Shown: positions 976 through 60,900 of the stretch, in pieces
How positions within the stretch are numbered: position 1 is the first letter of the stretch
Layout: every line of letters begins with the position of its first letter
Source of the DNA: Arenicola marina
Taxonomy: Eukaryota > Annelida > Polychaeta > Arenicolidae
DNA length: 64,000 bases
Direction of reading: 5' to 3'
Assembly (NCBI GenBank): GCA_964019135.1
Contig: OZ025252.1
Coordinates: 9,502,823-9,566,822 of the forward strand
The notes under the pieces: model-generated
What the model was told of the DNA's origin: nothing
Seen by the model: the letters and a program-made list of their open reading frames with translations, nothing else
Databases searched by the model: none
Position numbers and translations under genes: made by a program

Positions 976-3900
976 ATGAGCGACCTCCAGGCCAAGTACC
1001 AAAAGCTGGCAACAGAATATTCGAAGGTATGACATTTGGTGTTTGAACGAACGTAACTGGGCGTTAGACCCAGGCCAGGCCATATGAGACAGACTCTTGA
1101 CAGTTGTTGCTCCGCATATCCTCAGGCAGAAAATGTGGGGGGAAGATTTTTTTGTGTGGGCAAATGTTTTGTTTTGTGTTTTGAATGGCACAATCCATCA
1201 AACCATTGTCATTTTACTATTGTCACTAAGATACCTAAACTTTGTATTTACCACAAAACCCACATGCATATGAACTAACAAATTATCGCATTACTATCAA
1301 GGCGGTTGAAATGAGACTGTCTTGTTGTTTATCGCGCCATTTTGTATTTGGTCATTCTTCACCAGGGGCTTTAGCCAGGTGGCGTTTCGCTTATTGCATG
1401 TCAATAGCTAGGTGTATGCCACCAAGCGAATGGTATTATATTGACGGCATGCATAGATTTTCCACTGGGTGGGCTTGAGAAACGTTATTGTCGTAATAAT
1501 GAAGACTTGAAATAAAATAGTAACGTAAGTTGATTGATACATACTTCCAGAAATTATTCCTATACTCCAAACAGTTTGTCGCCATCAATACCGCTTCTCG
1601 CCTCGCATGTTTATGCATTGCGATACAGGATTTGATCGTTAGGACATGTGGCATTGTTTCGTGAAACCAACAATGTCACATGTCTTCATCTGTCTCATCT
1701 GCATTTTCTTCACACTGGCAGCCTCTAATAGGTTCGAGTGGGTAGATTTCGACATTTTGCTGAACCAGGTAGCAGTCGTTAATAGGTATGTCGTACGCCT
1801 TTGACCGGAATTGAGATTTGATGAATTTGCGGATTTCACACTGATCTCCTGATATTTCAACCACGATATATCTATCTCGGCCTTTCGTCTTATCACGATC
1901 CACCTTTAGATAGACCGAATCACCCACTTGCACCTTGATCATCGTTGATTCACTGCGGCTTCCAGCTTTGGACTTGCTGCTGTGAAGATGGTTAGCAGTG
2001 GCGGTTCTATGGGGGGGGGGGGGGGTAGGGGGGTTGCAACCCCCCCTTGGGAACCAGAACATACAACATACATGTTACTATACATGTTAAAGTCTCAAGT
2101 CTTCAGAGAGCAACCCCCCCCCCCCCTTGGGAAACTGAACATACACTGTTAAAGTCGGTTTCTCCAAGCACGCCTCCGCCCCCCCCCCCCCCCCCCCCCC
2201 CCCCCGGTCGGAAGTTTTTCAGAGAGCACAGCCCCTGGTCGGAAGTTTTTCAGAGAGCACAGCCCCCGGTCGGAAGTTTTCAGAGAGCACCCCCCCCTCC
2301 CCCCCCCCCCCCCCTTGGCAAATTCCTAGATCCGCCCCTGGTTAGCAGTTCGTATGTGCTGCTGTGTCCTGATGAGCTGAAGATCATCTATGGGTAAGTG
2401 TTCTCCAGTGACCTGGTCCCGTTGAGTCCAAACTTCACGCGCAGACAGACCACCCTTACGAATCCGCGCGTTCAGGTTTGCAGTAGCAACCGCGAGCGTA
2501 GATTGCGTCAGTGTATCGCCTTCCGGGTTGAGACGCAAACATTCCATACCTAACTCTTGGATGGCGCGTTCTGCCACCGGATTTTTATTTACGTTTTTTG
2601 CTGCGCCGATATCAAGGACGACACCCAGAGCTTTTAGAGACTGATCGTTCCGCAAGCTTACGAAGCCTGGGGCTGGGTCAACGCGAACGTGAACATCGTG
2701 ATCTCCGTATGAACGAACTTCAGCGGTAAGTGCGATCAAGGCATTTCTCAGCTCGTCTCGGGTTTCACCCCCGATAAGGGAGGTAAGGCTGTACATTGAA
2801 ACAGTTTCCCGAAGAACAAATACATATTGTCGGTAACGGCGCATGACGTCTGCTGCGAAGTTCGATCCTATCAAAGCAGGAGGATCGCATGATGTCTGAG
2901 GTCGCAGATAATTAGATAGGGTGTTAAGTGACCCACAGTGGTGACAAGATGGTGTTACGGCTACGAGAGCTTTATCCAGATCCAAGGCAGGAGAGATACC
3001 TGGTGAATAGCGCCTTCATATGGTGCTGAGGGGCGCTCGAACCGTATGTGCGTTGCCGTCAACAGACCGTTAATGACGGCGCGTGCTACCTACCTGTTTC
3101 TGGTAGGTAAGAAAGGTTTGTCTTCTCTCACCACTAACAATCCATCATTCGCAATGGTTACGTCGCGTATGTATCGTTTGACGTCCTGTATTGTAGTTTG
3201 CCTTTTGGAGGGTCGAGTTCCCTGTACGAGGTGTGCGTGTGTACGCCGAAGATTCGGACACTCGAGTTGAGTTACCTTCCAAGCCGCCCGGTTGGTGAAT
3301 GGCATCATTACTGAACCGTTTCTGACGTCACTGATTGATACACCGCGGACGACGGAATCTTCGGATTCCATGATGAATTTGCACAAATGACAACTTGGAT
3401 CCGAACATTCAGCTGGGTGTCTGCTTGCATAACTTGACGGAAGATTGGCGGCTCCAGATATGTGCCGGACTTGAATCGCGTAGCGACTGACAGTTGATAA
3501 GAAAGACGTAACTCTTGCGCTGGCTGAAAATTCACCGCGATTTAGTTTTTCACAGGCTTGAACACACGGTCTACTCTCCGTTAATAGTTGCGTAGTGTGT
3601 TGTAATTAAATAAGGAAAGGAGCGAAGTGCTTGATCGCCGTGCCAATAGTCAGCGCTTCGATTTCGCAAGGCATCCACGTAACTTGGTGCTTCCTGAGTT
3701 TAGCGTTGAAGAAGCCAGCCAGGATGAGAACGTCGTTGTGGCGAACGTATAACGTCGCGGCAATGCCTTGACTTCTGACTGATCCGTCCGTAACTATCCA
3801 TAATCGGTCTGTGGGATAGTAATGGTCTTAGTATTTTGTAACGACTCCTGCGCTACTTTGAAGGCGATGAGAAGCTCTTCTTTCCAGATGATAACCTCAC

Positions 3901-6900
3901 GGGACTCATTGCCCGCTGTTGCGGCTTCGAGCAGACTCACGTATTGGGCGTATCCGCGAAGAACACGACTGAGCACCTTATACGCTCCAACAAAGGATCT
4001 CAATCCTTGAACAGTTGTAGGTGGTTTAACTAGTGTAAGCGCGCTGATTCTGCGTTTGCTGGCTTTTAGTGTGCCGTCTGACCAGATCCATCCTAAAATA
4101 TTCGCTGATTTCGGGCATATGATCGTTTTAGAGGCAGAGAGACGAAGATTGTTTCGCTTCAGTGCTGATAACACCCGGGACCAATTGGTCAAAGTTTCCT
4201 GTGGGCTGTCACCGCCTACGTACAAATCGTCAGCGATTTTTGCCACATAGCCTTCTTGGATCAAGTCACCAAGAACTCTACACATCAGTTCCTCCAGGCA
4301 TGTCTGGATCCTGGCATCCCCATGGCCGAGCGGGGGTATACCCTGACGCCTTTGAAGGGCCTTGCAACTCCGCAGTATTTCATTGACGTTTGGGCCAGTG
4401 GTATCTGATAGAACAATTTGAGTAGGTCGGATATTACGATATTACGATGTATTTCCATTTCGCTATTTCACGGAGAACTCCCGTCAACGTTCGGTATCAG
4501 TGAAGGTTGGGGTTTGCAGTAATTAACCACTTCGCGAAATGAGGTGACCAAGCGTTTACTGCCGTTGTGTTTGTTGACGAGAAACGGTAGATTAAGATAT
4601 TCCAAGGTGGTGTTGACGTCTTCGGGCTTAGCAAATACCCCGGCGGCTTTGAGTTCGTCGAACTTTTGCTGTAACTCAGTCATAGTTGACTTGTTATACA
4701 GTGGAAGACGTCCCTTTCTAGCTCTTTCTCTGGGGTGGAAGAGTAGGTCCTATGATCAGGATTTAGGATCAAAGACGGCGTCGTATTGTCCGTGAAGATC
4801 TTTGAATCTCTGTCGGATTTCTGTAGGTAAACGTTCGTCTGGGTCTACCGACACATGGGTCGAGAACGGCGCTTCTATCTTCACAGTCCGGGTTGTTGGT
4901 AACACTGGCTGTTGTTGAGAAATTGTCTCTGGTGGAGATCCGACTTCTCTGACTTGGCATAAGTGTTCGTTGCCTTTGACCAGGATTGCTTCCGCCGTGG
5001 TATTGGCAACGCGAAGTGTATGTCTGACAGCGACGATCTCTTGTGGGGTAGGCGACGCTTTGCCGAGTTTCAGGTTTGTATTAGATGGGCTGTCCCACCT
5101 GGTTCCAAAGCCCACGTGAACGTGTTAGTTCACAATGAACCTCGGCGATGACGTCAAGTGGGGTTATGCCATCAGCTTGACGTGCTGACTGGGATTCGGT
5201 TTTGATTGGTAATCCAATTATTTTAGCGAATGACGCTTGAATCATGTTAGTTGTAGCACCGGTGTCTAGTGTGACTTTAACACGGTGGTGCTGGAAGAAT
5301 GTAGTCAGAAATGGAGATTGAATGACGTCAACGTTCCTCACAGTTGGTTCTGTATCCAGTAAAGCGTCTGGAACTGCTTCAGTGTCTCTGTCATATGAAG
5401 GTTCGTAAATATGTTCATCGTACTCATCATCTGCCACGCGACGTGATCGCCCTAAGGCATGCCTGTCAGCTTCTGGTAAATACTGACAATCGATGAGGTT
5501 ATGGGACGCGTCTGCGTGCGGTTTTACACAATATACAGGACTTAAACCCCTTTGGTTTTCGCTGTGGCTGGTTTTTCTGGTGGTACATGGGAGCTGATGA
5601 CGCGCGTAGGGCTTTCGAATCATCGATAGTTCGTAACTCATCCAGAAGAGATGATAGAGCTTGGGATATTTCCGGTTTTAGAGATGCTAAGGATTGTTTT
5701 CGAAGTTCAGCGCCGTATTTCTGTTTGACAAACTGAGGTAAAGCAGGATTTATTAGGTTGAGCCACATGAACACAACCGTGTTCTCCAAAGTAGGTGTTA
5801 GGTCTTCATCAACCATGACCGGTTCTCCGTGATGGAGAATGTCGCTATCCGGAGTTAGAAGATTATCCTCGAAAAAGGCTAACAAGCGCTGGTATAGATC
5901 TTCAGGTCGTTCATCAGGTAATAACTTGACATTAGATAGGTCTAAGAAATGAGCCCCGGAGGACTGGAAGCCATAATGCAGACGAATCTTCTGCCAAATA
6001 TCTGGCAATGAGGTAGAACCTTTCACGATGGAAGATCTTGATATGACTGAACATTATTTGGCCCAGTAATAGCTCCAGCTTAGCGTTTTTTTGTGTGGCC
6101 GTCAGTCTTTGTTCACTATATAGTTATAGGTACGGGTGCCACATCATCAGTTAGTCCTCTATTTGGGTTTGTAGCAGTTTTCTTTTGCCACACAACTCCT
6201 TCATTGAGGAAACTGTTGAAGCTATGGTCCAATGACAGTATATATATTAAGTTTTGCCTCCAGTTTTCAAATGAGTTCACTGTCTCATGCTTGGTCAAAG
6301 ACCATTGTTTCGGAGCTCTTGCCATATTTGTCTGGCGAACAAGGCCGGTATTAGCTTACTTGCGTGAGGAAACTTCAATTTTCCAAATCGAAACTGAGTG
6401 AAGCTGTTTCAGTCTTTTCGTCTTGTTGATAGACTATGCTACTCCGGACGAAGGTTTGTAAACCGTTGACACCACGCCAGATAACAACAACAGTCTTCTC
6501 CGACTTTATTCCCAATACACGTAAACTAACCACTTCTCATTGTGCAACTGCAAAGGCCTCGACGAGTGATAGAGCCACTCGCCAGATGGCGTTAATCACC
6601 CGTGGCGCTAATACCTTTTCCTGTAAGTTATATTGGTAGAAGAGTATTGTACAATGTGTAGATTCCCTCAAGCGATGCAAAACGTCCCGGGTCTTGTCGT
6701 CAAAGTTTGTATTGGGCATGCTGTGGGGGGCTTAATGTTTAAGGGGGTAGAGTCCTGCCCAGGTGAAGAGGGATTGAAATAGCTGGTTGTTATTATTAAT
6801 CAGGTGAAACATGGAAGCTGGGGCTCCATTTGCAAGCCAGCTTCTCTAGGGGCACAATGGTGTCCATGCTAAATTCCTTAGAAACTCCAGTCAGGAATCG

Positions 6901-9900: not shown

Positions 9901-12900
9901 TGAACAAATTCGTGTTTTAGCATGCAATGTGATTTTTGTACCTGATATGCCAAAATAGGTTGGCTTTAATTATTGAGACTGCTGCGAGCGTGCGGTGCTC
10001 GCCTTGCTGTGGTTATTGGTGGAAGGCAGGAAGCAGCTTTAATAAGGCAAACATACCTCCATAGCGTCCCACATAGCCAGGAAACGCAGCTAATCATTAA
10101 CCTCACCTACAAAATGTCACCTATAAACAGTGTCATATTCTAAACATTTCTCCCGGGTATGATGACTGTATCTATAACTTAGATAGCTTTCCCTTTAAAA
10201 CAACATGTTTTTTAAACAAAGTCGTGCATACATTAGCAGTGGCAAGCAGAATAATTGATCAAGGATTTTATTTGATGACATCAATGTGTGTTTGGCTTTT
10301 AGTATTGTGGCTTTCAGCACTCTTGTAGCATGGTATTGTATTGCATGGGTTGGGCGTGTACACTGCGCCTGGCCGGAAGTGAAGCGGCTATTATTTCTGA
10401 TGAGTAAATATTAGCATAAAATCTGGTCCGTTTTGGTTTAACAGAAACAGAATGCAGCACAAGACACACAAACAGGGATTGCAGAATATTCTGCTCATGC
10501 AAGTATAATTGGGGAAGAATTACAAAGCAAAATTGAAGAAAATGCAAGATTACATAGCAAGGTAATTATTCTTGTGTGTCTAGGAAGCGGTTTCAAATGC
10601 ATGAACTTTACGAGGCGTTGTTATTTGTTGGTATATAAAATGTAGTTGTCTTAGTTTTGTAAGGCCTTAATTGTTCACCATTGTGTATAAGTATATGTGC
10701 ATAAGTATTTTTGTTATGAAGTCTATTCCTTTTTGTGCCAGAAGTGCTTAACGGTGTGAAAAGACCATCACTGATTGAACTCGTTCATTGTTATTACTAC
10801 ATTGTGCTATAAAGTACTCGGTCATGAGTGATGTGCTTACATTTTCGCATATCGCTGGCCACGTGTACAATTGATTCATGGCATTTCAATCGAAATTGAC
10901 AATTTAAAAAATTAGATCTCGCAAAATAAAATGAATGATTTTTTATATTTCTGAGTGGTCCTCGATGGATATAATGAGCTATAATGAGAAGTTTTAAAAG
11001 GGTGATTTTTTACAGTAATAGTAGTTAATTACCGAATCCGGATGTGTGTCGCTTCAGTGAAAGTTCTATTTTTAGTTGATTTTGATCACCGAGTGATCCC
11101 ACTGTGTGTTTGATGTGAAGTGGGTGTTGGTGACCTTAGGTTCATGACGTGGACGAGGCCCACCGCCGTGTGTTGCTCGAGCTCCAGGACCGCCTATCGG
11201 CCCTGGAGTCGGACGCCAGCCAGCACCAGGCAGTCCTGGAGGCCACGCGCCAGAACAGCAAGGGACAGATAGACCGGTTGCAGGAAGAAAAGGCGCTCCT
11301 AGAGGTCGTTGTCTGAAGATACCATTTCTTTTTTGTGGTGTGCATAGATTTAGGTTCCGGCTGAGCTATATACTGGCTATTTTGTGTTTATCTTGAACTA
11401 TTACCATGCATCTATCTATGGGCTTCTATCTGGTGTAATGGTTAGCGCACTAGACCGCAGATCTATAGCTTGTGGGCTCGAAGCCGGCCCCGGGCACCTA
11501 ATCTGGGATATGTTTGTCATCGTCCCGAGAGGTTCCTTAATGTCATGTGTTCGCAATACGGCCTAAAACATTAATTAATTAATTTCGCTTGCACTTTGAT
11601 ATGTTACACAGATGCTGTGTTAATTAACTGCTGTTTCCGGTGGTATTTCGTCATCTATTATTCTGGTGCCCAGTTATCCAATATTCCAAATGGCCATCTT
11701 CCTTTACAAAAAATACTATTCGGTAGGGATTATTACTGCACAATATATGGGGATGACGTAATGAAAGACGAAGAACTGCATTTTTTGTCTTATTATTATT
11801 GTGCATTCTACGTATTAAAATGAAATATTATTTGCATATGTTGGTTGTAGATACGACTCCAGCGACAGGAGAAGGACGCCCACCGCGCTCTGGCCAGGGC
11901 CACAGACGCGTGAGTACGACGTGTCACCTTGTCTGAGGTTTACACGTAGAGGGGTCCAGACCTAGTCGTTACTATCCACAATGATAGCAATTTCCATTTT
12001 GTTGCATTTCGTAGTCTCAGCAGGTATTTTAGCCCATTTGGATGGCCCCCTGGATAAGTTTTTAATCTGGCTATAGTTGTAGTGTACAGACCAACATGGG
12101 TTCTAAGTGTGGCATCAGCTTTTTATCCACATCCTTTGTGCTTTGTCTTTCATGTTTGTTGGGTAATGAGGAGTAATTTCTGGACTTTTTAAGGGAAGAG
12201 CGGTTGGTCTTCCTACAACGAGATCTATCTACCCAACTGGAAAAAACAACGTCGACGATTCGCAGTAAATTGCCTTTTAATGACACTGGTGAGTTTTTGT
12301 CGAATTCAGTGATGCATACGATGGTTGGTTTATTGACGTAGATAATATATACTGATAGATACATATTACAAAAAGTTGTGATATTTTATCTCGTGGAAAT
12401 CTGAGATATGAAAAACCCTTGCTTCCCATCTTACATTGATGATTTATAATTTCCTTAGATTATCGGCTTTAAATATATGTAACATGCAAGTTGACTCAGC
12501 TCGTCAATTCTATTTGGGCTCATTGATTGTGCAAACCAGTCCTATGGAGGTGTAGGGAACCGGTCGTCGCAAAATGTCTCCTTGAGGTTTCTGAAATAGC
12601 AACATAGGGCGATATCGCAGTTATGTTTTCATATAATGAAACAGCGTGGTTAAACCACGAAAATATAAAGATAAAGCCGGAATGCAAATTGCATTATGAT
12701 CCTTAATATCTTAAAATTGTATTCACCCGCAACCGTCGACACCCACAGAAGTCGTGGAGGCACGTGACTCTGCTCAGTTTGCCCAGATATACACAAAACC
12801 CCTCATATATTCTCTGACTCGTAGAACTCCCGGAGCTGAACGCCCTGAACGTTCCGTGCCACAATCGTAAGCGCCAGCTGCGGACCAAGGAGCTGGCGGG

Positions 12901-15900
12901 GCAGGCGCTGGGGCTGGTGCGCGAGCTTGTCCAGGGTCTCTCCAACTACTACACGTACTCCGAGCAACGCGCCAAAGCATTCCCCGTCGACGCTGACCTC
13001 GAGCCGCTCAGTGACATCAACAAAAAGGTAGGAGGCGACCACGTGGCGCCCGCTCACTCTGTGTGTACCGTGCTCACTGTGTGTCCCCGCTCACTGTGTG
13101 TCCCGCGCTCACTGCGTATCCCGCGCTCACTGCGTGTCCCGCGCTCACTGCGTGTCCCGCGCTCACTCTGTGTGTACAGTGCTCACTGTGTGTCCCGCGC
13201 TCACTCTGTGTGTACTGTGCTCACTGTGTGTCCGGCGCTCACTCTGTGTGTACTGTGCTCACTGTGTGTACCGTGCTCACTGTGTGTCCCGCGCTCACTC
13301 TGTGTGTACCGTGCTCACTGTGTGTCCCGCGCTCACTGTTATTTCCGTGCTCACTGTGTGTACCGTGCTCACTGTGTATCCCACGCTCACTGTGTGTACC
13401 GTGCTCACTGTGTGTCCCGCGCTCACTCTATGTGTACCGTGCTCACTGTGTGTCCCGTGCTCACTGTGTGTCCCGCGCTCACTCTGTGTCCCGTGCTCAC
13501 TGTGTGTCCCGTGCTCACTGTGTGTCTCGTGCTCACTGTGTGTCCCTCACGCACTGTGTGTCCCGTGCTCACTGTGTTCCGCGCTCACTCTGTGTGTACC
13601 GTGCTCACTTTGTGTCCCGCGCTCACTGTGTGTCCCGTGCTCACTGTGTGTCCGGTGCGCACTGTGTCCCGTGCTCACTGTGTGTCCCGCGCTCATTGTG
13701 TGTCCTGTGCTCACTGTGTTTGTCCCGCGCTCACTCTGTGTCCCGTGCTCACTGTGTGTCCCGCGCTCACTGTGTGTGTACCGTGCTCACTGTGTGTCCC
13801 GTGCTCACTGTGTGTCCCGCGCTCACTGTGTGTCCCGTGCTCACTCTGTGTGTCCCGTGCTCACTGTGTGTACCGTGCTCACTGTGTGTCCCGCGCTCAC
13901 TCTGTGTGTACCGTGCTCACTGTGTGTCCCGCGCTCACTCTGTGTGTACCGCGCTCACTGTGTGTTCCGCGCTCACTGTGTCCCACGCTCACTGTGTCCC
14001 GGCTCACTGTGTGTCCCTCGCTCACTGTGTGTCCCGCGCTCACTGTGTGTCCTGCGCTCACTGTGTGTCCCGCGCTCACTGTGTCCCGCGCTCACTGCGT
14101 GTCCCGCGCTCACTGTGTGTCTCATGCTCACTGTGCTGACTGTGTCCCGCGCTCACTGGGTGTCCCGCGCTCACTGCGTGTCCCGCGCTCACTGTGTGTC
14201 TCATGCTCATTGTGTCCCGTGCTCACTGTGTGTCCCGCGCTCACTGTGTGTTCTACCCTCACTGTGTGTCTCGCGCTCACTGTGTCCCGCGCTCACTGTG
14301 TGTCCCGTGCTCACTGTGTGTCTCATGCTGACTGTGTCCCGTGCTCACTGTGTGTCCCGCGCTCACTGTGTTTCCCACGCTTACTGTGTGTCCTGCGCTC
14401 ACTGTGTGTCCTGCGCTCACTGTGTGTCCCGCGCTCACTGTGTGTCCCGTGCTCACTGTGTGTCCCGCGCTCACTGTGTGTCTCGCGCTCACTGTGTGTC
14501 CCGCGCTCACTGTGTGTCCTGCGCTCACTGTGTGTCCCGCGCTCACTGTGTGTCCTGCGCTCACTGTGTGTGTCCCACGCTTACCGTGTGTCCTGTGCTC
14601 ACTGTGTGTCCCGCGCACACTGTGCCCCGCGCTCACTGTGTGTCCCGGGCTCAATGTGTGTCCCGCGCTCACTGTGTGTCCCGCGCTTACTGTGTGTCCC
14701 GCGCTCACTCTGTGTACCGTGCTCACTGTGTGTCCCGCGCTCACTGTGTGTCCCGCGCTCACTGTGTGTCCCGCGCTCACTGTGTGTCCCGCGCTCACTG
14801 TGTGTCCCGCGCTCACTGTGTGTCCCGTGCTCACTGTTTGTGTCCCGCGCTCACTGTGTGTCCCGCGCTCACTGTGTCCCGCGCTCACTGTGTGTGTCCC
14901 GTGCTCACTGTGTGTGTACCGTGCTCACTGTGTGTCCCGCGCTCACTGTGTCCGGCGCTCACTGTGTGTCCCGCGCTCACTGTGTGTCCTGCGCTCAGTG
15001 TGTGTCCCGCGCTCACTGTGTGTCCCGCGCTCACTGTGTGTCCCCGCTCACTGTGTGTCCCAAGCTCACTGTGTGTCCTGTGCTCACTGTGTGTGGCCGG
15101 TGCTCACTGTGTGTCCCCACTCACTGTGTGTCCTGCCATCAGTGTGTGTCCCGCGCTCACTGTGTGTCCCCGCTCACTGTGTGTCCTGCGCTCACTGTGT
15201 GTCCTGCGCTCACTGTGTGTCCCGTGCTCACTGTGTGTCCCGCGCTCACTGTGTGTCTCGCGCTCACTGTGTGTCCCGCGCTCACTGTGTGTCCCGCGCT
15301 CACTGTGTGTCCTGTGCTCACTGTGTGTGTCCCGTGCTCACTGTGTCCCGCGCTCACTGTGTGTCCCGCGCTCACTGTGTGTCCCGCGCTCACTGTGTGT
15401 CCCGCGCTCACTGTGTGTCCCGCGCTCACTGTGTGTCCCGCGCTCACTGTGTCCCGTGCTCACTGTGTGTCCCGCGCTCACTGTGTGCCCTGCGCTTACT
15501 GTGTGTCCCGCGCTAACTGTGTGTCCCGCGCTCACTGTGTTCCGTGCTCGCTGTGTGTGTCCCGTGCTCGCTGTGTGTGTCCCGTGCTCACTGTGTGTCC
15601 TGCGCTCAGTGTGTGTCCTGTGCTCACTGTGTGTCCCGCGCTCACTGTGTCCCGCGCTCACTGTGTGTCCCGTGCTCACTGTGTGTCCCGTGCTCACTGT
15701 GTGTCCCGTGCTCACTGTGTGTCCCGTGCTCGCTGTGTGTGTCCCGTGCTCACTGTGTGTCCTGCGCTCAGTGTGTGTCCTGTGCTCACTGTGTGTCCGG
15801 CGCTCACTGTGTCCCGCGCTCACTGTGTGTCCCGCGCTCACTGTGTGTGTCCCGCGCTCACTGTGTGTCCTGCGCTCAGTGTGTGTCCCGCGCTCACTGT

Positions 15901-18900
15901 GTGTCCCGCGCTCACTGTGTGTCCCAAGCTCACTGTGTGTCCTGTGCTCACTGTGTGTGGCCCGTGCTCACTGTGTGTCCCCGCTCACTGTGTGTTCTGC
16001 GCTCACTGTGTGTCCTGCGCTCACTGTGTGTCCTGTGCTCACTGTGTGTCCCGCGCTCACTGTGTGTCCCCGCTCACTGTGTGTCCCGTGCTCACTGTGT
16101 GTCCCGCGCTCACTGTGTGTCCTGTGCTCACTGTGTGTCCCGTGCTCACTGTGAGCCCGGTAGATTATTTGAGGCGAATATAACAACAGTAAATACGTCG
16201 TTGTAAATGGAAAGGACACTGATCCCCTCCCTCGCCACACGTTGCTGGCTCGCCACACGTTACTCCCTCGCCACACGTTACTGGCTCGCCACACGTTACT
16301 GGGTGTCGTTGTATGGGTTAAGGTGTCAGAAACCACTTATCGTTGAGCCGACAGGTGACACGTGGGCTATTGTTCGGAAGAGGATATAAACATATCTTAG
16401 GCGTCTTTGAGGATTGCTACTGCAGTCCATCGGAATCCTCATAGATGTAGATTTCTATGTGATGGAGCAGAAACCTGTGTATTTGCGGTGACTTACCAAT
16501 CGTCTTGGCCTGTGTTACAGTATTGTCAGTATCTTCACGAGAACGCGTCCTACCTGCGACCAGTCGAGCAGTCCTTCAAGGCATTCGCAGAAGACCTGAA
16601 GGAAGATTCACTTACAACTTTGGTCTGTATTCGCCAAACCGCACCAATCTATAGGACGTATTATCTCCACTTTGTCTAATTTCCCCGGCGGTTTTGTGGG
16701 TCACTTTTTGTGCCGAAATGTGGCCTAAAACACTTTGCGTAATCTGGACTTTGCCTTTGTTCTGTGAGCTGTGTGACTGGCTTCCATGCTGCAGACACTT
16801 TGAGAAGAGTTTAATAATGTTCACAAGCAGTGTGATTAAGTGCATTAACTTTCAATGGCCTTGTCTTTCTTCAAATGAAGGGCCGTATTGGTTTAACAAG
16901 ATGGGTTATCTAAGTGTATGTTTACTTGTAGGAAACTGCATCGGGTCTTCAGCCGTTCTCGGCGTGTTTCAAAATATATGTAGCCTACGCCAATAAACTC
17001 TTATCGTACCAGCTACTAAGGTGAGCAGACCTTCAACTTCTCTCAGCCCAATATTATTTAATATTAACCAATGAATAAATCCTACCGATATTTCGCCCGG
17101 TAGCCTATTGTGTTATTACTTTCCATCTGTCTCTCCGCCTCACTGTGTGGATCACACCGTCGCCTAGTAGGTTGGGCTATCGTCGCGTGTCTCAGCTAGA
17201 CCAGCCCAAGCGGCCGGTGCGTAGTTCGAATCCCACATGTGTAAATATCTATGTGCGGTCAGGATAGATATCCCATCTCTTTCCACGCAAAGCGTAGTTA
17301 CTCTCGGAGACATGGCTCCGCTCTGTTCTTGACCCTTCCCATTGTCGCGATATGACCTAAACAGGTTTACGCGTACGACTGAAATCCGTCACTTGCTGTG
17401 TGTCCGTGCTCTCCGCAGCCTGGAGGAGGAGTGCGCGGTGTCCTCCTGCAGCTCCACCCTGGAGGCCAAGAACATGGAGCTGCACACCGCCGTGCGGGCG
17501 CTGGTCGCCGCACTCTCCAAGCTCGACACCTACATCAGTATTATCGCTGCTCAAAGTGAGTCGCCAGAAACTCGACACTTATATATATGTACTTACACAC
17601 TGAACTTGGCGTTCCACTAAAAACTGGTTTCCTATTAAAATTGTCCCACTTGAGTCCACTTTGATTATGTAAGCACTGAATATAATGTGTGTTTTTCAGA
17701 TGTTTCCCAAGCCAGTCACCCGCAGTCTAGTCACTGTCGGCTGTTTGAACAGACCGCCAGAGCGATCACAGACTTCCACGAAGTTGTCAAAGGTATGCTT
17801 CTTGCCGCACTCATTGGCTGTGGCCCATTCTGACGTCAGGTTCGGGGTAAACGAACCCCGCATTCATTGGCTGTGGCCCATTGTGACGTCAGGTTCGGGG
17901 TAAACGAACCCCGCATTCATTGGCTGTGGCCCATTGTGACGTCAGGTCCGGGATAAACTCATCCCGCACTCATTGGCTGTGGCTCATTGTGACGCCGAGT
18001 CCGGGATAAACTCATCCCGCACTCATTGGCTGTGGCCCGTTGTGACGCCGAGTCCGGGATAAACTCATCCCGCACTCATTGGCTGTGGCCCGTTGTGACG
18101 CCAGGTCCGGGATAAACTCATCCCGCACTCATTGGCTGTGGCCCGTTGTGACGCCAGGTCCGGGATAAACTCATCCCGCACTCATTGGCTGTGGCCCGTT
18201 GTGACGCCAGGTCCGGGATAAACTCCTCTCGCACTCCATTTCTCCATTCCGTTGCCCCGCGAGGTGTATTTGCCCTATTTGAGCCTTCATTTGCATAAAA
18301 GAGACCTAGAACACCTATACTTAATTTCATGTTCAAATGGGAACCAGAGAACCGTTGTGGTATAATAGCTAGGTGAACGTGATGTAGCGGACTTATCACT
18401 AACTTCTCCTCCCAATGATAACGTCATAGATATCGCAGACAACGGCCTCTGATTGGCCTTGTCGAGGTTTTCCTCTATCGACCCGGACAGTTTCGTCTCC
18501 AAGATGTTCATTCTCCTGTGTATGTCACCCCCGCGCTGGCGTGTTGTAGACGTGTCGAAGCTGTACAACGGCAAGGTGTCGCTGGAGCACCAGCTGCCGA
18601 CCACCACCCAGAAACTCCGGGTCACGGACGAGTGCCTCGTGTCGGCTCTCGTGTCATTGGTCACGTGCACCAGCAAGGTGGGTCAAGCCGGGGTCAGGCA
18701 CGTGTCATTGGTCATGTAGGTCAAGGTAGGTCAAACAGGGTCAGGCACGTGTCATTGGTCATGTAGGTCAAGGTAGGTCAAACTACCGTCTCTCTGCCTC
18801 TTACAATGTGATACGACCACAAGGCACAGCAGTACAGTTGGTTGCCGGATAATGCTATACCATACTGGTATGAAGATCCAAAGAAGAACGCTTGCCTTAT

Positions 18901-33900: not shown

Positions 33901-36900
33901 AAAACCCGGACGCCACCACTCAGCTCTGCACCCACCCCATCGTCCCGCAGTCAGTCATGTTTTCAGTCACACTTGGACGTCATGGCGACGATTGCACTGC
34001 GTAAAGCCCGGGTCTGGCGGTGGGCGGAGTGAGTGCGCTCGCACGGAGGGACCACCTGGCGGGGACGCGCTCTCATCGATCTTATTAATGGGGCTGTTGT
34101 TATTGACCGCTGATATATGGACCAAGTAGTGGCACGTGGTCGGAGGGTAGTTGGGCGGGTTGTATTCGCATGTTTGGGGATTTGCGGCAGGAAATCGGGC
34201 GGCGGGGGGTGGGGGATTGGGTACATTACAAAATGATTGAGAAGAATCATGAAATGATAAATACAATACTATATATGAGGTTCAGTGTGAAATGTGTGTG
34301 TAGCGTAATTTTGGAAGGCTTATCATTAACAAAGGGTTATACCACTATGGCTTTATAATAGGTATTCACACCATGTGGGGAAGTGGGGGGGGGGGACTAC
34401 AGTTTATCACCTACAATAGGTATCCACACCATGACCGGGAGGCGGGGGGGGGGGGGGTTACAGATAGCGGCCCGTAGCTATGCAAGTGTTGCCTGACCTT
34501 GGCTTGACCTTGGCCTGGCGATCGAGTTATTCCCCTCGAGTTCACGGTTTAGACACCAGGGGCCGCTCGCCGACCCCGCCACTGACTGAGTGCCCTCAGG
34601 CGGGGCGGCCTGGCCGCTGTGACGTCATCACTTCGACCTCGCCCTAATATCAACAAGCGCCCCCTAACGGCGAAGTGCGGCCTCTAACCTCTTGATCGCC
34701 ATTTGAGCCAATCAGAAACGATCGTGTTGTAAAGCTGCAGGCAACTACTGTGACCTGGTTCCTGCCTTTGTTTCCGTACTGTCTATTTATAAGATCCTGG
34801 TCAATGGAAACAATGCATGAGGAGGTGGAGCCGAACGCGTGCCCCCAACCCCCACATGTCTATTAGAGATAAAGAGGCGTTGGGTTAGTCGGGCGTTAGC
34901 AAGTAGTGGTATTGTATTGGGCCGACTGACCGATAGTTATGTCTGACCCGCCATTTTTGTTATCGGCTTACCGACGGGAGATGCAGAACGATGGTGGGTC
35001 ACAGTGAAGCATAAGGCGGTGCGAAGTGGCGCTGTTACCATTATTGTGAGATAACAATCTGTGTAATCGAGAGGAACGTCCTGTGATGCATCCAGGCTAG
35101 GCGGCGGGCCGTTATAACTCCTCGAGTTAAAGGGGCGGCGGGCCGTTATAATCCTCGAGTTAAAGGGGCGGCGGGCCGTTATGATCCTCGAGTTAACGGG
35201 GCGGCGGGCCGTTATAACTCCTCGAGTTAAAGGGGCGGCGGGCCGTTATAATCCTCGAGTTAAAGGGGCGGCGGGCCGTTATAATCCACGAGTTAACGGG
35301 GCGGCGGGCCGTTTTGATCCTCGAGTTAAAGGGGCGGCGGGCCGTTAAGATCCACCTGTTAAAGGGGCGGCGGGCCGTTATAATCCTCGAGTTAAAGGGG
35401 CGGCGGGCCGTTAAGATCCACCTGTTAAAGGGGCGGCGGGCCGTTATAATCCACGAGTTAACGGGGCGGCGGGCCGTTTTGATCCTCGAGTTAAAGGGGC
35501 GGCGGGCCGTTAAGATCCACCTGTTAAAGGGGCGGCGGGCCGTTATAATCCTCGAGTTAAAGGGGCGGCGGGCCGTTAAGATCCACCTGTTAAAGGGGCG
35601 GCGGGCCGTTATAAAACTCGAGTTAAAGGGGCGGCGGGCCGTTAAGATCCACCTGTTAAAGGGGCGGCGGGCCGTTATAATCCACGAGTTAAAGGGGCGG
35701 CGGGCCGTTATAATCCACGAGTTAAAGGGGCGGCGGGCCGTTAAAATCCACTGTTAAAGGGGCGGCGGGCCGTTATAATCCTCGAGTTAAAGGGGCGGCG
35801 GGCCGTTAAGATCCACCTGTTAAAGCGGGTGTCCAACTTAATTTAATCGCGATCTGCACCGAAAGTTCACATCTTGAAATTAAATTGGTTAACGTGTTAA
35901 CGTGTTAATTAAAGTGTTAACGCTTCGTTTCGGCCGACTGGTAAGGAGAACAAAATTAAGGCAACCCGCCCCCAGCAATGTCGAGCAGAGCGCCATTTTG
36001 CCGGGAGCAGTGACGGTTATTGTGACTATTCATGTGGCACCGCCTTATGTTATCACTCGCGGACAGAGAAATCAGGGCCGCGATTTACAGATGAACAGCG
36101 GCAGTTCCAAGCCGCGCAGTAGACCATGATCTTAGCGTTTCATGGAAAAGTACCATCCAAACAAATTGATGTACATCTTGCGACAATTGATTTCGCAACA
36201 ATGCCATGATTGGAGTTAGAATCGCAGCTCTTTATATTAGCGATGATCACGCGCTCTTGTTTTGCTCACACAATAGGCGTAATTTCCGCTGTGAATAAAT
36301 TAGAGTATCGCCTCCTGATTGGTCAATCGCGGACACACCGCCAAAAAGGGCTGCCGCCTGGGTAGGCGGCGAAATCGTGCCCGGCGGTCACTTCTAAATT
36401 TTATTGTGAGCTATCGATAGGACGAACAATTATGTAATTTGGAGGATAGACAATTGGGTATTATATGAATCTGTAAATCAGCGTTAAAGGCCAGACTGGC
36501 GGTTCCCTTTAAAGGGGCGGCGAGCCGTTATAATCCTCGAGTTAAAGGGGCGGCGGGCCGTTAAGATCCACGAGTTACAGGGGCGGCGGGCCGTTATAAT
36601 CCACGAGTTACAGGGGCGGCGGGCCGTTATAATCCACGAGTTACAGGGGCGGCGGGCTGTTATGATCCACGAGTTATGGGGCGGCGGGCTGTTATGATCC
36701 ACGAGTTAAGGGGCGGCAGACCGTTATGATCCACGAGTTAAAGGGCGCCTAATGACACACGCTATTGCCGGACTTCTAACAAAGTATTGGTGTTTATGAA
36801 TATGAAGACTACACAATCCTCCCGGGGAAAATGGAATGGGGTTGGATGAAACTTACCCCAGGGACAGGGGCTTGGGTTCGTCCGCAGAAGACGCAGTTTG

Positions 36901-38221: not shown

Positions 38222-40670
38222 GCGGATCTTCAAATACAGGATATAGATGCGAAACTACTTCTAGAATTCCACAGGCAGCTCCTCATCCTACGTCACATCG
38301 CCTGGTTGTGACGTCAGTCCTTTATGCCGTTGTCTCAAAGCCTCTCAGACATGTTTGTCGCTTGAGTTGTACTATGAAAGTCGCTAGACATATCTGTTGA
38401 AGTACTTATCTTTCCGTTATCTCCCATGGCCTTTCGTGGGTGACTCTACTTGGCCTGTCTCGCTTGGAGCGTCTTGCAATGTAGGGAAATGTGCAGTAAC
38501 GAGTCATAAAAAGACACGATATGTCTATAAATATTGCACAATTATCAATATGTTTGAATCAAACGAGCAGTTTAATGCGCCATATTAATTTTATAAAAAA
38601 AAGAGACTTTGACCTTCGATAAGCTAATCCCGACACCGACCTTGATCAATTTCACGAGTTGTCAAGTCGGCTGTAGAAGGAGTCCGGGATGGGTTGTTAG
38701 TGGCATCTATCGCTTGCTTCTCAACTGCAGATATCATTCTAAATGACGGACGAGTTCAACCTGCATCGTGCTTCCATGTGAACCAGCGCCATTTTAATTC
38801 AGTGTAGCTCATGTACAACTCGCTACCAGCATTTACTACTAACAAAATAGATTTCGTATGTGTATACTAACATGGCCGTTAATCTATCAAACGTGGCTGA
38901 CTAGGCCCTATAAGGGTATTCGTGTCAGTGTTTACACGTTGTCACATCTAATGACGTCATTCCCAGACGACTTAAGACGCGGCATTGAAATCAAATCCTT
39001 CCAATGTACGTAACCATGGCAACATGTTATAAATAAAACACGTGCCGCGATTAATCTGCTCGGTGATTAAGTTGATCCGTGACTTTTGAGTGAAGTTTTA
39101 TTTAGTAAAGGAGAGTGATGTTTTCCATGATAAAAGAGGCGACTGTTTTAACGTGAGACCTAAGTTAACGTTTGTCGTTTATGAGTAATGAAAGGACTTT
39201 TTGAGGGACAACTGAATACAAGCCATTAGTGGACATGCAATTGTGCGAACCGCGATGATAATTGTCATTAGCATAATTGATCATTAGCAAAAGTGTATGC
39301 GTAGAAATGCTAGGCTGTGAATAGCATTTAGTGTCTGTGCAGAAGTGGTCGATTGGTTATTAGCAGTAGGTGTCTGGTTGTGTGTTTGGAAGTGGCAGGC
39401 TGTCAATAACGTGTGTCTGTACGGACGTTGCAGCTAGACTGTGATTAGCAATAACTGAACTGGTTGTGTGTCTGTACGTGCTACATTGCAAAAAGTCCCT
39501 GGCTATGTCTGTACAAACGTACTTGTTTGTGGACCAGGTTGTGTCTGTACAGAGATGATTGTTTGTGATCAACAATACGTGTCGGGTTGTGTCTGTACAA
39601 AAGTGCTACGCTGTGAATAGCATTTAGTGTCTGGTTGTGTGTCTGTATAGAAGTGCGCGGCTGGATCGTTAGCTTTTACTCTCGTACGTTACGTTCTTCG
39701 CAACGAGGTGGTTACTCCCGGAGACCTGGCTCCTCTCTCCATTGACGTGATAGGACTGCATATCTTAAGGCGTCCTACCAACCAACCAACATGGCTACAC
39801 CAATTCAAAGATACAATACTCTATAAAACAAGTAGTCTACAATTATCGCATTCGAAGCGACGTAAAACACATATTTTGTATTTTGTCGCTGCCAAATGGT
39901 TACCATGGCCGCCGCTAGAGTACAGGGGGCGGTATTCATAAATCACAAATCTAGCGCCAAGTGGAACATTTTTGTCGAGCGATTATCGGGTTCACAATAG
40001 AACTATTTACACAAGAGGTAGATTTTATGAATTAAGAAAGTGCTAACATTATATTGAATATGACTTCTTGGTCAGGAGCCCCAATGCTGCGACGAAAATG
40101 TTCTTTGTGTGGTAAGTTACATCTGGATTATGAATACCGCCCCAGCGTCTGAGAGTCCACCCAGGACGGGTTTGGTAGGGGAGATTAGGGAAAGGGTGGG
40201 GGGGGGGGTTAATTTGGCAGACACGCAATGTAGTACATTACATGTATGCATAATGTACTGTTTATGTAATCCGTGTATGGTATCTCTGTATATTTGGAGT
40301 GTATATCGATATAAAATATATACGAACGCGACTTTGGGATCTGTTTGTTTTTGATGAGTGAGTTTGCATAGAAACTAAAGAGCTCCAAACCAGATATTGT
40401 ACAGGTTACAAATGTTATGAACGACAGGTGTCAAAAAGGATTGCTAGTGTGTAGCGCTTTTAATACAATTAGTTTTAGTTTTTTTAACCCAAAATATAGT
40501 TCATTAGATATTTATGATGAACACATTTACCTCTCTTTTTTCGATAAAGTTTATATCTATTTACGATCCAAATTTACGAGATTTTACAAAGAAGCGATCT
40601 TCTGGTCAGCGCAAACAAATCTATAAAATGAAATTGTGTTTTGGGCCACTTTTGCGCACACGCAAGACTA
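38222..40670. other. Intergenic region downstream of PPP1R21
   Basis: It follows the PPP1R21 stop and must contain its 3' UTR; candidate AATAAA signals occur, for example near 39031, but none can be chosen. A degenerate tandem stretch at about 39290-39665 repeats TGTGTCTGTACAGAAGTGC-like motifs. A SINE family C fragment is at about 39690-39790. No gene is seen. Confidence 0.55.
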
Positions 40671-40674
40671 ATGT

Positions 40675-40870
40675 TAGCCAATGAACCCCGCAGGACGATG
40701 AATGGAGGGCACTTGTCCGAGATTAGGTGCCCGGGCCCGGCTTCTGACACAGAACCTATTTATCTGTGGTTTACCGCGCTAACCACTACACTAGGGAGAC
40801 CCCATTTTACGCTAACCACTTCACTGGGGACTTCCCCCCCCATTTTACAACTGGAGAGCCCACTCTTGGC
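40675..40870 (-). mobile_element. tRNA-SINE family B, with box A region tandemly duplicated
   Basis: On the minus strand CCCTAGTGTAGTGGTTAGCG contains a perfect pol III box A (TAGTGTAGTGG). It is followed by GGGCACCTAATCTCGGACAA, the family B body. Upstream a second head copy (CCCAGTGAAGTGGTTAGCG) lies about 33 bp away, with CATTTTAC repeated too, so the head is present two to three times. Confidence 0.7.
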
Positions 40871-54900: not shown

Positions 54901-57900
54901 GACGAACGCTCTCTAGCTCTGCGACGACCTAATGTCACAACAGAGTACCAGAATCACTTTCATCGCAGACTACATTGCAATGCCATCCTCTCTGAAGAGA
55001 ACTTCCAAGAAAAATAAGCGGATATGTATCTTATATTAACATAAGGTAAAGACCAGCAAGCAGAATGATCTTCATCAGATGGGTGAAAAGCGGGTTTGTA
55101 CATTTAAAAGCTCATAAGCTAAGATTATCTAACACCGGTACTAATAAAACATGTCATTTTCATATCGTGTGCGCCGCGCTATTGATGATATGTAGAATCC
55201 TAACTACCGGTACAGTGAATAATATATACATGTAGAACTCAAAGCCATTTAAGACTGCGTTATTTAGGGAAGTGTATTGCCTTACACTTGCACGCTGCGC
55301 CTCTGATTGAGCTAACTGAGACCTCAGCGAGGTAATCTCTTCAATCTGTGGAGCCTGCTTTTTTTGTTGTTCTAATGCCTGAAAATGAAAAATATTAAAA
55401 TGCCTTAATTAAATTAAATATACATAAAGAATTTATGAACACTTCCAAACGCCAAATATGAATTTCGAGTAGCCCATCCTTTATCAAAAGTGTAAATGCA
55501 GTCCCCATAAGAAAGGATGGTTTTATGACGGCAGGGGTGGGGGGTAGTTCGAAGGCTGACAACCGGTGAGAGTAATCGACTCCAAAAGTGTCGACAAGGG
55601 AGGAGTTCGGTTCATATTCGTATGAAACTTTCGCCGTTGTTTGTTTCCAGTTTAGACTTAACAGTGTAGGTTTGAAAGGTAGACATCGTGCGACGTTCAC
55701 GCTCAACCCCACCCACCTCGGGTAGCTCTCGAAACCAAAGGGGTAAATCCAAATGACCCTTTTTCTGTGTTCATCCATTGCAGTTTAAGTTCTATCAAGA
55801 ATTCAAGACACATAAAATATACATAAATATTGTAAAACAAAAAGAACCTGTTTTAATTCTGCCGACATCACGCCAACCTCGTCCTGTTTTTTCTTCAGAG
55901 CAGACCTCTCTGTTCGTAGCTCATCCTGAATGCTTTGCAACCGTTTATCCACGCTGCTCATTGCCTGCAACACAAAGCGTCTGCCATGTCTCTGGTGGCA
56001 ACTACTAACTCTGCTCACAGAAGGATTGTTATCCTGCAGGAAATGACATGAATCGATGCTTTAATTAGGCCGAGGCTGTGCACACAAGGGTTAAACTGGG
56101 CCAAGGAACTTCTCGGGGCGATGAGTAGATGAAACCTGTCCCAGATTAGGTGCCCAGATTCGAACCCAGCACTATTGATCTGCGTGTTACTGTGATACAT
56201 ACTACACTAGAGAGGTCGCCTTATCGTTACTGTGATACATACTACACTAGAGAGGTCGCCTTATCGTTACTGTGATACATACTACACTAGAGAGGTCGCC
56301 TTATTGTTACTGTGATACATACTACACTAGAGAGGTCGCCTTATCGTTACTGTGATACATACTACACTAGAGAGGTCGCCTTATTGTTATTGTGATACAT
56401 ACTACACTAGAGAGGTCGCCTTATCGTTACTGTGATACATACTACACTAGAGAGGTCGCCTTATCGTTACTGTGATACATACTACACTAGAGAGGTCGCC
56501 TTATTGTTACTGTGATACATACTACACCAGAGGTCGCCTTATCGTTACTGTGATACATACTACACTAGAGAGGTCGCCTTATCGTTACTGTGATACATAC
56601 TACACTAGAGAGGTCGCCTTATTGTTACTGTGATACATACTACACTAGAGGTCGCCTTATCGTTACTGTGATACATACTACACTAGAGAGGTCGCCTTAT
56701 CGTTACTGTGATACATACTACACTAGAGAGGTCGCCTTATTGTTACTGTGATACATACTACACTAGAGGTCGCCTTATCGTTACTGTGATACATACTACA
56801 CTAGAGAGGTCGCCTTATCGTTACTGTGATACATACTACACTAGAGAGGTCGCCTTATTGTTACTGTGATACATACTACACTAGAGAGGTCGCCTTATCG
56901 TTACTGTGCTACATACTACACTAGAGAGGTCGCCTTATTGTTACTGTGATACATACTACACTAGAGGTCGCCTTATCGTTACTGTGATACATACTACACT
57001 AGAGAGGTCGCCTTATCGTTACTGTGATACATACTACACTAGAGAGGTCGCCTTATCGTTACTGTGATACATACTACACTAGAGAGGTCGCCTTATCGTT
57101 ACTGTGCTACATACTACACTAGAGAGGTCGCCTTATTGTTACTGTGATACATAATACACTAGAGGTCGCCTTATCGTTACTGTGATACATACTACACTAG
57201 AGAGGTCGCCTTATCGTTACTGTGATACATACTACACTAGAGAGGTCGCCTTATCGTTACTGTGATACATACTACACTAGAGAGGTCGCCTTATCGTTAC
57301 TGTGATACATACTACACTAGAGAGGTCGCCTTATTGTTACTGTGATACATACTACACTAGAGGTCGCCTTATCGTTACTGTGATACATACTACACTAGAG
57401 AGGTCGCCTTATCGTTACTGTGATACATACTACACTAAAGAGGTCGCCTTATCGTTACTGTGATACATACTACACTAGAGAGGTCGCCTTATCGTTACTG
57501 TGATACATACTACACTAGAGAGGTCGCCTTATTGTTACTGTGACACATACTACACTAGAGAGGTCGCCTTATCGTTACTGTGATACATACTACACTAGAG
57601 AGGTCGCCTTATTGTTACTGTGATACATACTACACTAGAGAGGTCGCCTTATCGTTACTGTGATACATACTACACTAGAGAGGTCGCCTTATTGTTACTG
57701 TGATACATACTACACTAGAGAGGTCGCCTTATCGTTACTGTGATACATACTACACTAGAGAGGTCGCCTTATTGTTACTGTGATACATACTACACTAGAG
57801 AGGTCGCCTTATCGTTACTGTGATACATACTACACTAGAGAGGTCGCCTTATCGTTACTGTGATACATACTACACTAGAGAGGTCGCCTTATCGTTACTG

Positions 57901-60900
57901 TGATACATACTACACTAGAGAGGTCGCCTTATCGTTACTGTGATACATACTACACTAGAGAGGTCGCCTTATCGTTACTGTGATACATACTACACTAAAG
58001 AGGTCGCCTTATCGTTACTGTGATACATACTACACTAGAGAGGTCGCCTTATCGTTACTGTGATACATACTACACTAGAGAGGTCGCCTTATTGTTACTG
58101 TGATACATACTACACTAGAGAGGTCGCCTTATCGTTACTGTGATACATACTACACTAGAGAGGTCGCCTTATCGTTACTGTGATACATACTACACTAGAG
58201 AGGTCGCCTTATCGTTACTGTGATACATACTACACTAGAGAGGTCGCCTTATTGTTACTGTGATACATACTACACTAGAGAGGTCGCCTTATCGTTACTG
58301 TGATACATACTACACTAGAGAGGTCGCCTTATCGTTACTGTGATACATACTACACTAGAGAGGTCGCCTTATCGTTACTGTGATACATACTACACTAGAG
58401 AGGTCGCCTTATCGTTACTGTGATACATACTACACTAGAGAGGTCGCCTTATTGTTACTGTGATACATACTACACTAGAGAGGTCGCCTTATCGTTACTG
58501 TGATACATACTACACTAGAGAGGTCGCCTTATTGTTACTGTGATACATACTACACTAGAGAGGTCGCCTTATCGTTACTGTGATACATACTACACTAGAG
58601 AGGTCGCCTTATCGTTACTGTGATACATACTACACTAGAGAGGTCGCCTTATCGTTACTGTGATACATACTACACTAGAGAGGTCGCCTTATCGTTACTG
58701 TGATACATACTACACTAGAGAGGTCGCCTTATTGTTACTGTGATACATACTACACTAGAGAGGTCGCCTTATCGTTACTGTGATACATACTACACTAGAG
58801 AGGTCGCCTTATCGTTACTGTGATACATACTACACTAGAGAGGTCGCCTTATCGTTACTGTGATACATACTACACTAGAGAGGTCGCCTTATTGTTACTG
58901 TGATACATACTACACTAGAGAGGTCGCATTATCGTTATTGTGATACATACTACACTAGAGAGGTCGCCTTATCGTTACTGTGATACATACTACACTAGAG
59001 AGGTCGCCTTATCGTTACTGTGATACATACTACACTAGAGAGGTCGCCTTATCGTTACTGTGATACATACTACACTAGAGAGGTCGCCTTATTGTTACTG
59101 TGATACATACTACACTAGAGAGGTCGCCTTATCGTTACTGTGATACATACTACACTAGAGAGGTCGCCTTATTGTTACTGTGATACATACTACACTAGAG
59201 AGGTCGCCTTATCGTTACTGTGATACATACTACACTAGAGAGGTCGCCTTATCGTTACTGTGATACATACTACACTAGAGAGGTCGCCTTATCGTTACTG
59301 TGATACATACTACACTAGAGAGGTCGCCTTATCGTTACTGTGATACATACTACACTAGAGAGGTCGCCTTATCGTTACTGTGATACATACTACACTAGAG
59401 AGGTCGCCTTATCGTTACTGTGATACATACTACACTAGAGAGGTCGCCTTACCGTTACTGTGATACATACTACACTAGAGAGGTCGCCTTATCGTTACTG
59501 TGATACATACTACACTAGAGAGGTCGCCTTACCGTTACTGTGATACATACTACACTAGAGAGGTCGCCTTATCGTTACTGTGATACATACTACACTAGAG
59601 AGGTCGCCTTATCGTTACTGTGATACATACTACACTAGAGAGGTCGCCTTATTGTTACTGTGATACATACTACACTAGAGAGGTCGCCTTATCGTTACTG
59701 TGATACATACTACACTAGAGAGGTCGCCTTATCGTTACTGTGATACATACTACACTAGAGAGGTCGCCTTATCGTTACTGTGATACATACTACACTAGAG
59801 AGGTCGCCTTATCGTTACTGTGATACATACTACACTAGAGAGGTCGCCTTATTGTTACTGTGATACATACTACACTAGAGAGGTCGCCTTATCGTTACTG
59901 TGATACATACTACACTAGAGAGGTCGCCTTATTGTTACTGTGATACATACTACACTAGAGAGGTCGCCTTATCGTTACTGTGATACATACTACACTAGAG
60001 AGGTCGCCTTATCGTTACTGTGATACATACTACACTAGAGAGGTCGCCTTATCGTTACTGTGATACATACTACACTAGAGAGGTCGCCTTATCGTTACTG
60101 TGATACATACTACACTAGAGAGGTCGCCTTATCGTTACTGTGATACATACTACACTAGAGAGGTCGCCTTATCGTTACTGTGATACATACTACACTAGAG
60201 AGGTCGCCTTACCGTTACTGTGATACATACTACACTAGAGAGGTCGCCTTATCGTTACTGTGATACATACTACACTAGAGAGGTCGCCTTACCGTTACTG
60301 TGATACATACTACACTAGAGAGGTCGCCTTATCGTTACTGTGATACATACTACACTAGAGAGGTCGCCTTATCGTTACTGTGATACATACTACACTAGAG
60401 AGGTCGCCTTATTGTTACTGTGATACATACTACACTAGAGAGGTCGCCTTATCGTTACTGTGATACATACTACACTAGAGAGGTCGCCTTATCGTTACTG
60501 TGATACATACTACACTAGAGAGGTCGCCTTATCGTTACTGTGATACATACTACACTAGAGAGGTCGCCTTATCGTTACTGTGATACATACTACACTAGAG
60601 AGGTCGCCTTATTGTTACTGTGATACATACTACACTAGAGAGGTCGCCTTATCCTGCACGATTATAGTCTTTCGCACAGTGGGACACCTTGCGATAGCCT
60701 CGAAATAAGTGATCATGTAGTTGTGTACACAATTCGTTAAATGCGTTTCAAAAATTACTAGGCACACTTACACTTTCAATGACAGGTTTATGTATTTCCT
60801 CCCTTAACTGCGTAAACACCTGTTTGTCGGCTCCGCCCAACCTGAGTGAGACCAAAAACAAATCAAAACACCTTACAACAGGAATCTCTTGTAACTGATT

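Follow-up and report, generated by a model that had tools for sequence, protein, structure and literature searches.

The window analyzed here, a stretch of 64,000 nucleotides from the polychaete Arenicola marina (contig OZ025252.1; G000:C5:9502823-9566822), contains a giant minisatellite with a 40-bp unit joined to a short interspersed element (SINE), both read on the minus strand (Table 1). The two lie in the intron upstream of a predicted exon, 64 bp before its predicted acceptor and in sense orientation with respect to a minus-strand coiled-coil gene. Tandem Repeats Finder (TRF) describes the minisatellite as a single array with period 40, 112 copies and 97% matches; the giant 40-bp repeat of the original prediction is therefore real, and of the limits proposed for it, 56040 to 60653, the end coincides with that of the array and the start falls inside the 3' copy of the target-site duplication.

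Table 1. Coordinates of the minisatellite, of the SINE copies and of the associated features in the window
Feature	Position	Strand	Basis
Minisatellite, 112 units (35 bp of SINE head and 5 bp of target site each)	56186..60653	-	TRF, direct splitting
35-bp SINE head, SINE-proximal copy, source of the unit	56186..56220	-	alignment, profile
SINE body of copy A: remaining tRNA-related part with box B-like GGTTCGAATCT, conserved core GGGCACCTAATCTGGGACA, tail	56042..56185	-	blastn, eight-locus profile, core match C5:9558959-9558977
3' copy of the 13-bp target-site duplication, plus-strand TTATCCTGCAGGA	56029..56041	-	10 bp exact, 13 bp with one mismatch
5' copy of the duplicated target site (TTATCCTGCACGA), the initial 5 bp shared with the end of the outermost unit	60649..60661	-	
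SINE copy B (L018), one extra head unit	40608..40803	-	blastn, profile, shuffles
Two head units of copy B (40811-40848, 40778-40810)	40778..40848	-	
SINE copy C	11420..11599	+	blastn, profile
Predicted coiled-coil exon, 117 bp, AG/GT bounded	55848..55964	-	splice sites by eye

Regarding its composition, direct splitting of the array, about 4.5 kb long, gave 112 units of 11 types, the commonest accounting for 70 of them; 106 units measure 40 bp and six 38 bp. On the minus strand, the unit consists of GATAA followed by the 35 bp of the SINE head GGCGACCTCTCTAGTGTAGTATGTATCACAGTAAC, where GATAA is the last 5 bp of the host target site. The homology between the unit and part of the SINE is seen both in the three-copy alignment, where the heads of copies A (next to the array), B and C pair, and with a profile of these three copies, which matches the array at 111 places, reaching as far as model position 35; this profile includes the SINE of the array, and it matches the window copies by construction. 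A profile of eight other genome loci also matches all three window copies (E 1e-28, 6e-35 and 2e-29), and by blastn the segments 56047-56161, 40677-40798 and 11418-11538 match each other, with E values from 2e-9 to 3e-15. Searched with the unit dimer, the 867-Mb assembly gave one candidate place, namely this array, with at least 50 matches, all those listed being inside it; the counts are lower bounds, with very common words skipped. The derivation of the array from the head of the SINE that it abuts, as originally proposed, thus holds, and the single genomic place found for it has the SINE adjoining.

As for the boundaries of the insertion, the minus strand reads ...TCGTGCAGGATAA/GGCGACCTC... 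at the outer end of the array and ...TCCTGCAGGATAA/CAATCC at the end of the SINE tail, the slash marking the junction; the 13-bp repeat, with one mismatch, encloses SINE A together with the array. Of 4000 random unmasked pairs searched over a comparable space, 4 had a 13-mer match with no more than one mismatch, and the exact 10-mer match was reached in 20 of 20000 shuffles of the tail. When 26 arrays of the window were examined for a flanking 13-mer pair, this array was the sole case not made of poly-C, the two others being poly-C. A duplication at the same position, exact and 12-16 bp long, is likewise seen in seven of 27 loci of the family. Because the pair is rare among random pairs and has no other such counterpart in the window, a single insertion, delimited by its duplicated target site, contains the array. 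It is extremely improbable, instead, that the minisatellite existed beforehand and the SINE landed beside it: SINEs do seemingly sit inside older arrays at three other loci of the genome (L027, L033 and L040), but here the unit is itself SINE head, and the duplicated target site encloses the SINE plus the array and not the SINE alone.

The five host bases of the unit are informative on how it was copied. Among 27 loci printed, the bases preceding the head vary, and GATAA occurs before it in SINE A only (locus L019); GATAA is therefore host DNA and not SINE sequence. Since the unit includes bases of the target site, it cannot derive from the SINE RNA alone, and it was as DNA, across a junction already complete, that the duplication took place. 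The original prediction had attributed the array to template slippage during reverse transcription, by which the head would have multiplied and the array would have arrived with the SINE; with 5 bp of its own target site in the unit, and with a target-site duplication that encloses the array, this explanation is strongly disfavored for this array and very unlikely, even considering the other copies with extra heads that are discussed below as points in its favor.

The array very probably arose in place, by DNA-level duplication across the host-SINE junction after integration, and then grew. Judging from the target-site duplication, the tRNA-derived SINE would have inserted on the minus strand by target-primed reverse transcription, creating the 13-bp duplication; later, in the order of events that we infer, a tandem duplication of the DNA would have taken in 40 bp across the junction, of which 5 bp belong to the target site and 35 bp to the start of the SINE, and the dimer would have reached 112 units through unequal exchange or slippage in replication, with block duplication as one of the steps. 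The internal structure of the array records a step of this last kind: when the string of unit types is read from the distal end, the first 23 units are repeated exactly 19 units on, rare variants included, which is a block duplication of about 760 bp. This distal repeat, together with the confinement of all six 38-bp units to units 9-30, numbered from the SINE, suggests that recent growth took place at the array end away from the SINE.

The SINE family was then followed across the assembly with a 19-base core, GGGCACCTAATCTSGGAYA, which has 36 exact matches (0 for the reversed control) and no exact match in the viral_contigs and genome_contigs collections. All 36 were inspected; discarding by eye those with a common locus or common flanks (two of L012-L014, and a single copy from L024/25, from L031/32, from L035/36 and from the L040 pair) left 30 independent insertions, and all family counts rest on copies with a perfect core. 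The motifs TRGTGTAGTGG and GGTTCGAATCC occur in the 5' part of many of the copies printed, and are presumably box A and box B, by the consensus that we take for them; the tail follows the pattern CCTTGGCCCARTTTAGCC. On these motifs, and on target-site duplications that vary in sequence among loci, the family is assigned as tRNA-derived, with other results counting against it: ARAGORN found no tRNA in the window at default settings and weak folds on the SINE strand in three of five copies at a relaxed threshold, and Rfam returned no tRNA up to E 5. The 5' head is present in 27 of the 30 insertions, with L010, L030 and L041 beginning at profile positions 32, 75 and 31, respectively.

Extra head units occur in five of these 30 insertions, L009, L016, L043, L018 (copy B) and L019 (SINE A), or in 3/28 when the two copies that prompted the count are set aside. 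L009 has three units, L016 two and L043 six profile hits, the first one partial; a further partial unit beside L015 was excluded from the count. Other parts of the SINE are repeated in tandem in four insertions: L024/25 (54-bp body repeat), L035/36 (67 bp and 14 bp), L012-14 (139 bp x 2, tail and 3' flank) and L031/32, which is also L039 (G000:C12:16933000-16941000). Overall, a tandem repeat that includes SINE sequence is found in 9/30 insertions. L039 is the best parallel to the array of SINE A: at 1613-6833 it holds 163 units of 32 bp (5.2 kb) that repeat SINE positions 71-102, flanked by the head of its own SINE on one side and by its tail on the other. That other SINE segments, including the one repeated in L039, grew in tandem where they stood favors growth at the DNA level.

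Some of the loci may also record how arrays change in length. L024 and L025, 15 kb apart on G000:C10, share the 54-bp array of the SINE body, with about 7 and 22 copies, respectively, by TRF, a difference that is possibly a record of array growth after segmental duplication. At L040 (G000:C18:2035500-2044500), a 37/111-bp array contains the same SINE insertion two times, at a distance of 5076 bp; the pair is interpreted as a block duplication inside the array, and the insertion could serve to date array growth. At this locus, as at L027 and L033, the SINE stands inside a tandem array and seems to have landed in an older one. Finally, a 74-bp array beside L011/L045 abuts the head, and was left out of the counts because the shared CAGCCTCTA is too short to decide.

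Regarding the way in which head dimers start, the head-head junction of L009, L016 and L043 falls at one place, CCTGGG/GGGCC (diverged in L009; junction sequence ATAGGTCCTGGGGGCCTCC), and the repeated stretch covers SINE positions ~3-58 with no visible flank. This common junction, the 5 of 30 copies with extra heads and the partial unit beside L015 are what slippage during reverse transcription would have in its favor. However, the junction may be recurrent, because it is there that the run of G with which the SINE begins joins CCTGGG, near position 55, and the private variants common to the units of L043 point to duplication in place. The mean distance among these units is 0.159 versus 0.239 to other loci, so that a local duplication is supported for L043; the distances, 0.26 against 0.25 for L009 and 0.164 against 0.187 for L016, whose second unit is shifted at its end, do not decide in these two cases. 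Short repeats are also present in the SINE consensus, GGTTC with a spacing of 69 bp and CTCGGG with one of 48 bp, the former spacing fitting roughly with the 67-bp unit of L035; in this they resemble the model of Haber and Louis, based on short direct repeats, as reported in PMC6947457.

Copy B offers a second case within the window. Its head units 40811-40848 and 40778-40810 align with a score of 37, matched by 0 of 2000 shuffles, and this confirms the predicted independent copy near 40675-40870 with a repeated head; the head was said to be duplicated two to three times, and the convincing units are two, the score of a third being reached by 69/5000 shuffles. Both units start with GTAAAAT, which is absent before the head in the other loci printed, so that the duplication in copy B also seems to cross the 5' junction. 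Its candidate target-site match, TTGTAAAAT, is 9 bp long and tentative, as 143/20000 random pairs reach the same; the scan of 27 loci gave instead a match of 7 bp, 46 bp past the 3' end of the profile. In copy C no head repeat was seen by eye, and eight weaker SINE relatives in the window, detected with the window profile (E up to 0.01), are mostly tails.

That the duplicated segment crosses the 5' junction in both extra-head copies of the window, less surely in B than in A, is what would be expected if the duplication had happened during integration, with second-strand synthesis across the new 5' junction slipping back by 40 bp, and not during later replication. This timing is unlikely: the repeats of L009, L016 and L043 show no visible flank and the body repeats are far from the junction. 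A broader proposal, that the 5' junction left by a SINE as it integrates is in itself a hot spot for tandem duplications, appears improbable as well; if true, strand-switching during junction fill-in would copy a few target-site bases and the first 26-35 bp of the element, the dimer would later grow to a giant array, and each array would be the fossil of an integration error.

The original prediction also held that the SINE head tends to expand in tandem. Heads do expand, as the genome-wide count shows; a special tendency does not follow, as other parts of the SINE expand too and the density of arrays within SINEs is not clearly above that of their flanks. The flanks of 28 loci, with L039 and L040 excluded, contain 40 TRF arrays for 57.7 kb lying outside arrays, or 0.69 per kb, versus seven arrays in approximately 5.0 kb of SINE sequence (5006 bases, an approximate count; about 1.4/kb), where 3.5 are expected (P 0.063 for at least seven). 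The seven are L009, L012, L019, L025, L035, L039 and L043; left out were L033 and L040, with the SINE in an older array, and L016 and L018, where TRF found none. P becomes 0.14 without the array of SINE A (at least six arrays), and 0.38 without L025, L035 and L039, which the search may have favored since their units are in or around the search core or the SINE is partly array. Minisatellites arise everywhere in this genome, and expansion of heads beyond that of other DNA cannot be claimed; in the window, the tandem arrays listed by TRF occupy 16.3 kb, or 25%. The array of SINE A, as a by-product of a genome in which minisatellites form very readily, requires no function.

A few observations weigh against duplication in place at the junction. 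The two target-site copies of SINE A differ at one base, and an exact 10-mer match was found in 736/20000 random window pairs with tandem arrays unmasked, many of which we take to fall within arrays. Among 27 loci, a clear target-site duplication, exact, of 12-16 bp and next to the SINE start, was found in only seven (L012, L022, L023, L029, L033, L034 and L044), and that of L033 lies in an array; the 30-bp repeat of L027 and L040 is array sequence, 18 other loci gave matches of 4-8 bp that are not clear, and the scan of L019 fell inside the array. Clean microhomology is not seen at the edges of the duplication (GCAG/GATAA, GTAAC/ACGCAG); GCAG is present at both, but a slip there would yield a 46-bp unit. 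Last, a chance 5-bp match between the target and an RNA bearing GATAA would give reverse-transcription slippage an escape, which is unlikely.

As for the surroundings, the coiled-coil gene has a weak Pfam match to CEP63 (E 0.003, below the Pfam cut-off), and any influence of the array on its splicing is speculation. Elsewhere in the window, a 53-bp array of 8 copies at 17805-18236 adjoins a SINE tail remnant and was rejected as SINE-derived, since 67, 1095 and 1448 of 2000 shuffles reach the scores of its unit versus the three SINE copies. In a PPP1R21-like gene, this array begins about a dozen bases past a predicted splice donor; ATTGGCTG is found in its units and TGACGTCA in some of them, presumably CCAAT-box and CRE motifs. 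A PPP1R21-like exon at 12818-13030 is directly followed by a 3.1-kb array (12818-16183) with a degenerate 18-bp unit and long open frames on both strands. Two separate arrays at 35100-35808 and 36509-36745, 700 bp apart, have a nearly identical 33-bp unit, and the minus strand at 2326-6053 holds broken pieces of a reverse-transcriptase-type retroelement, with one weak Pfam RVT_1 match below the cut-off.

In conclusion, the array of SINE A is an unusually clean record of the birth of a minisatellite, in which one can read where the repeat came from, where the insertion begins and ends and which segment was duplicated; thanks to the host bases in the unit, copying at the level of RNA can be told apart from duplication of DNA. 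Together with the array of L039 and the copies that have two to six heads, it provides, within a single genome, a range of stages from which the onset and the growth of minisatellites can be measured. A partial literature search found no minisatellite with a unit extending from a SINE into the duplicated target site of that SINE; as evidence of novelty, this is weak.

In humans, Alu elements have given rise to minisatellites, as reportedly described by Jurka and Gentles in 2006 and as described by Ahmed and Liang in 2012 (PMC3389668). The array of SINE A is a clear new example of this known route, minisatellites born from SINEs, and not a new class. The literature records both minisatellites that stem from Alu and B1 and satellites that stem from SINE regions related to tRNA (PMC6947457, PMC9659126, PMC3389668, PMC11121367). 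The human Alu minisatellites, like the array described here, consist of SINE segments repeated in tandem in place; in these accounts, they have short direct repeats at their edges, and any part of the element can be used (PMC3389668, PMC9659126). Differently from them, the unit of the present array enters the target-site duplication, its edges are not cleanly explained by a short direct repeat, and the copies are 112. The mouse (GGCAGA)n variable number tandem repeat from B1 SINEs (Bois et al. 1998, as cited in PMC6947457 and PMC9659126) likewise expanded inside a SINE, with a unit of 6 bp compared to the 40 bp with host bases found here. In Hy/Pol III of plethodontid salamanders and satellite 1 of Xenopus, as tabulated in PMC9659126, the tRNA-related part of a SINE is in tandem, as here; both are satellites, whereas the present array was found at one locus. 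Finally, the limpet PcH-sat from Nin-SINE (PMC11121367) is also tandem DNA from a tRNA-type SINE of an invertebrate; unlike the array of SINE A, it is a pericentromeric 179-bp satellite without box A and box B.

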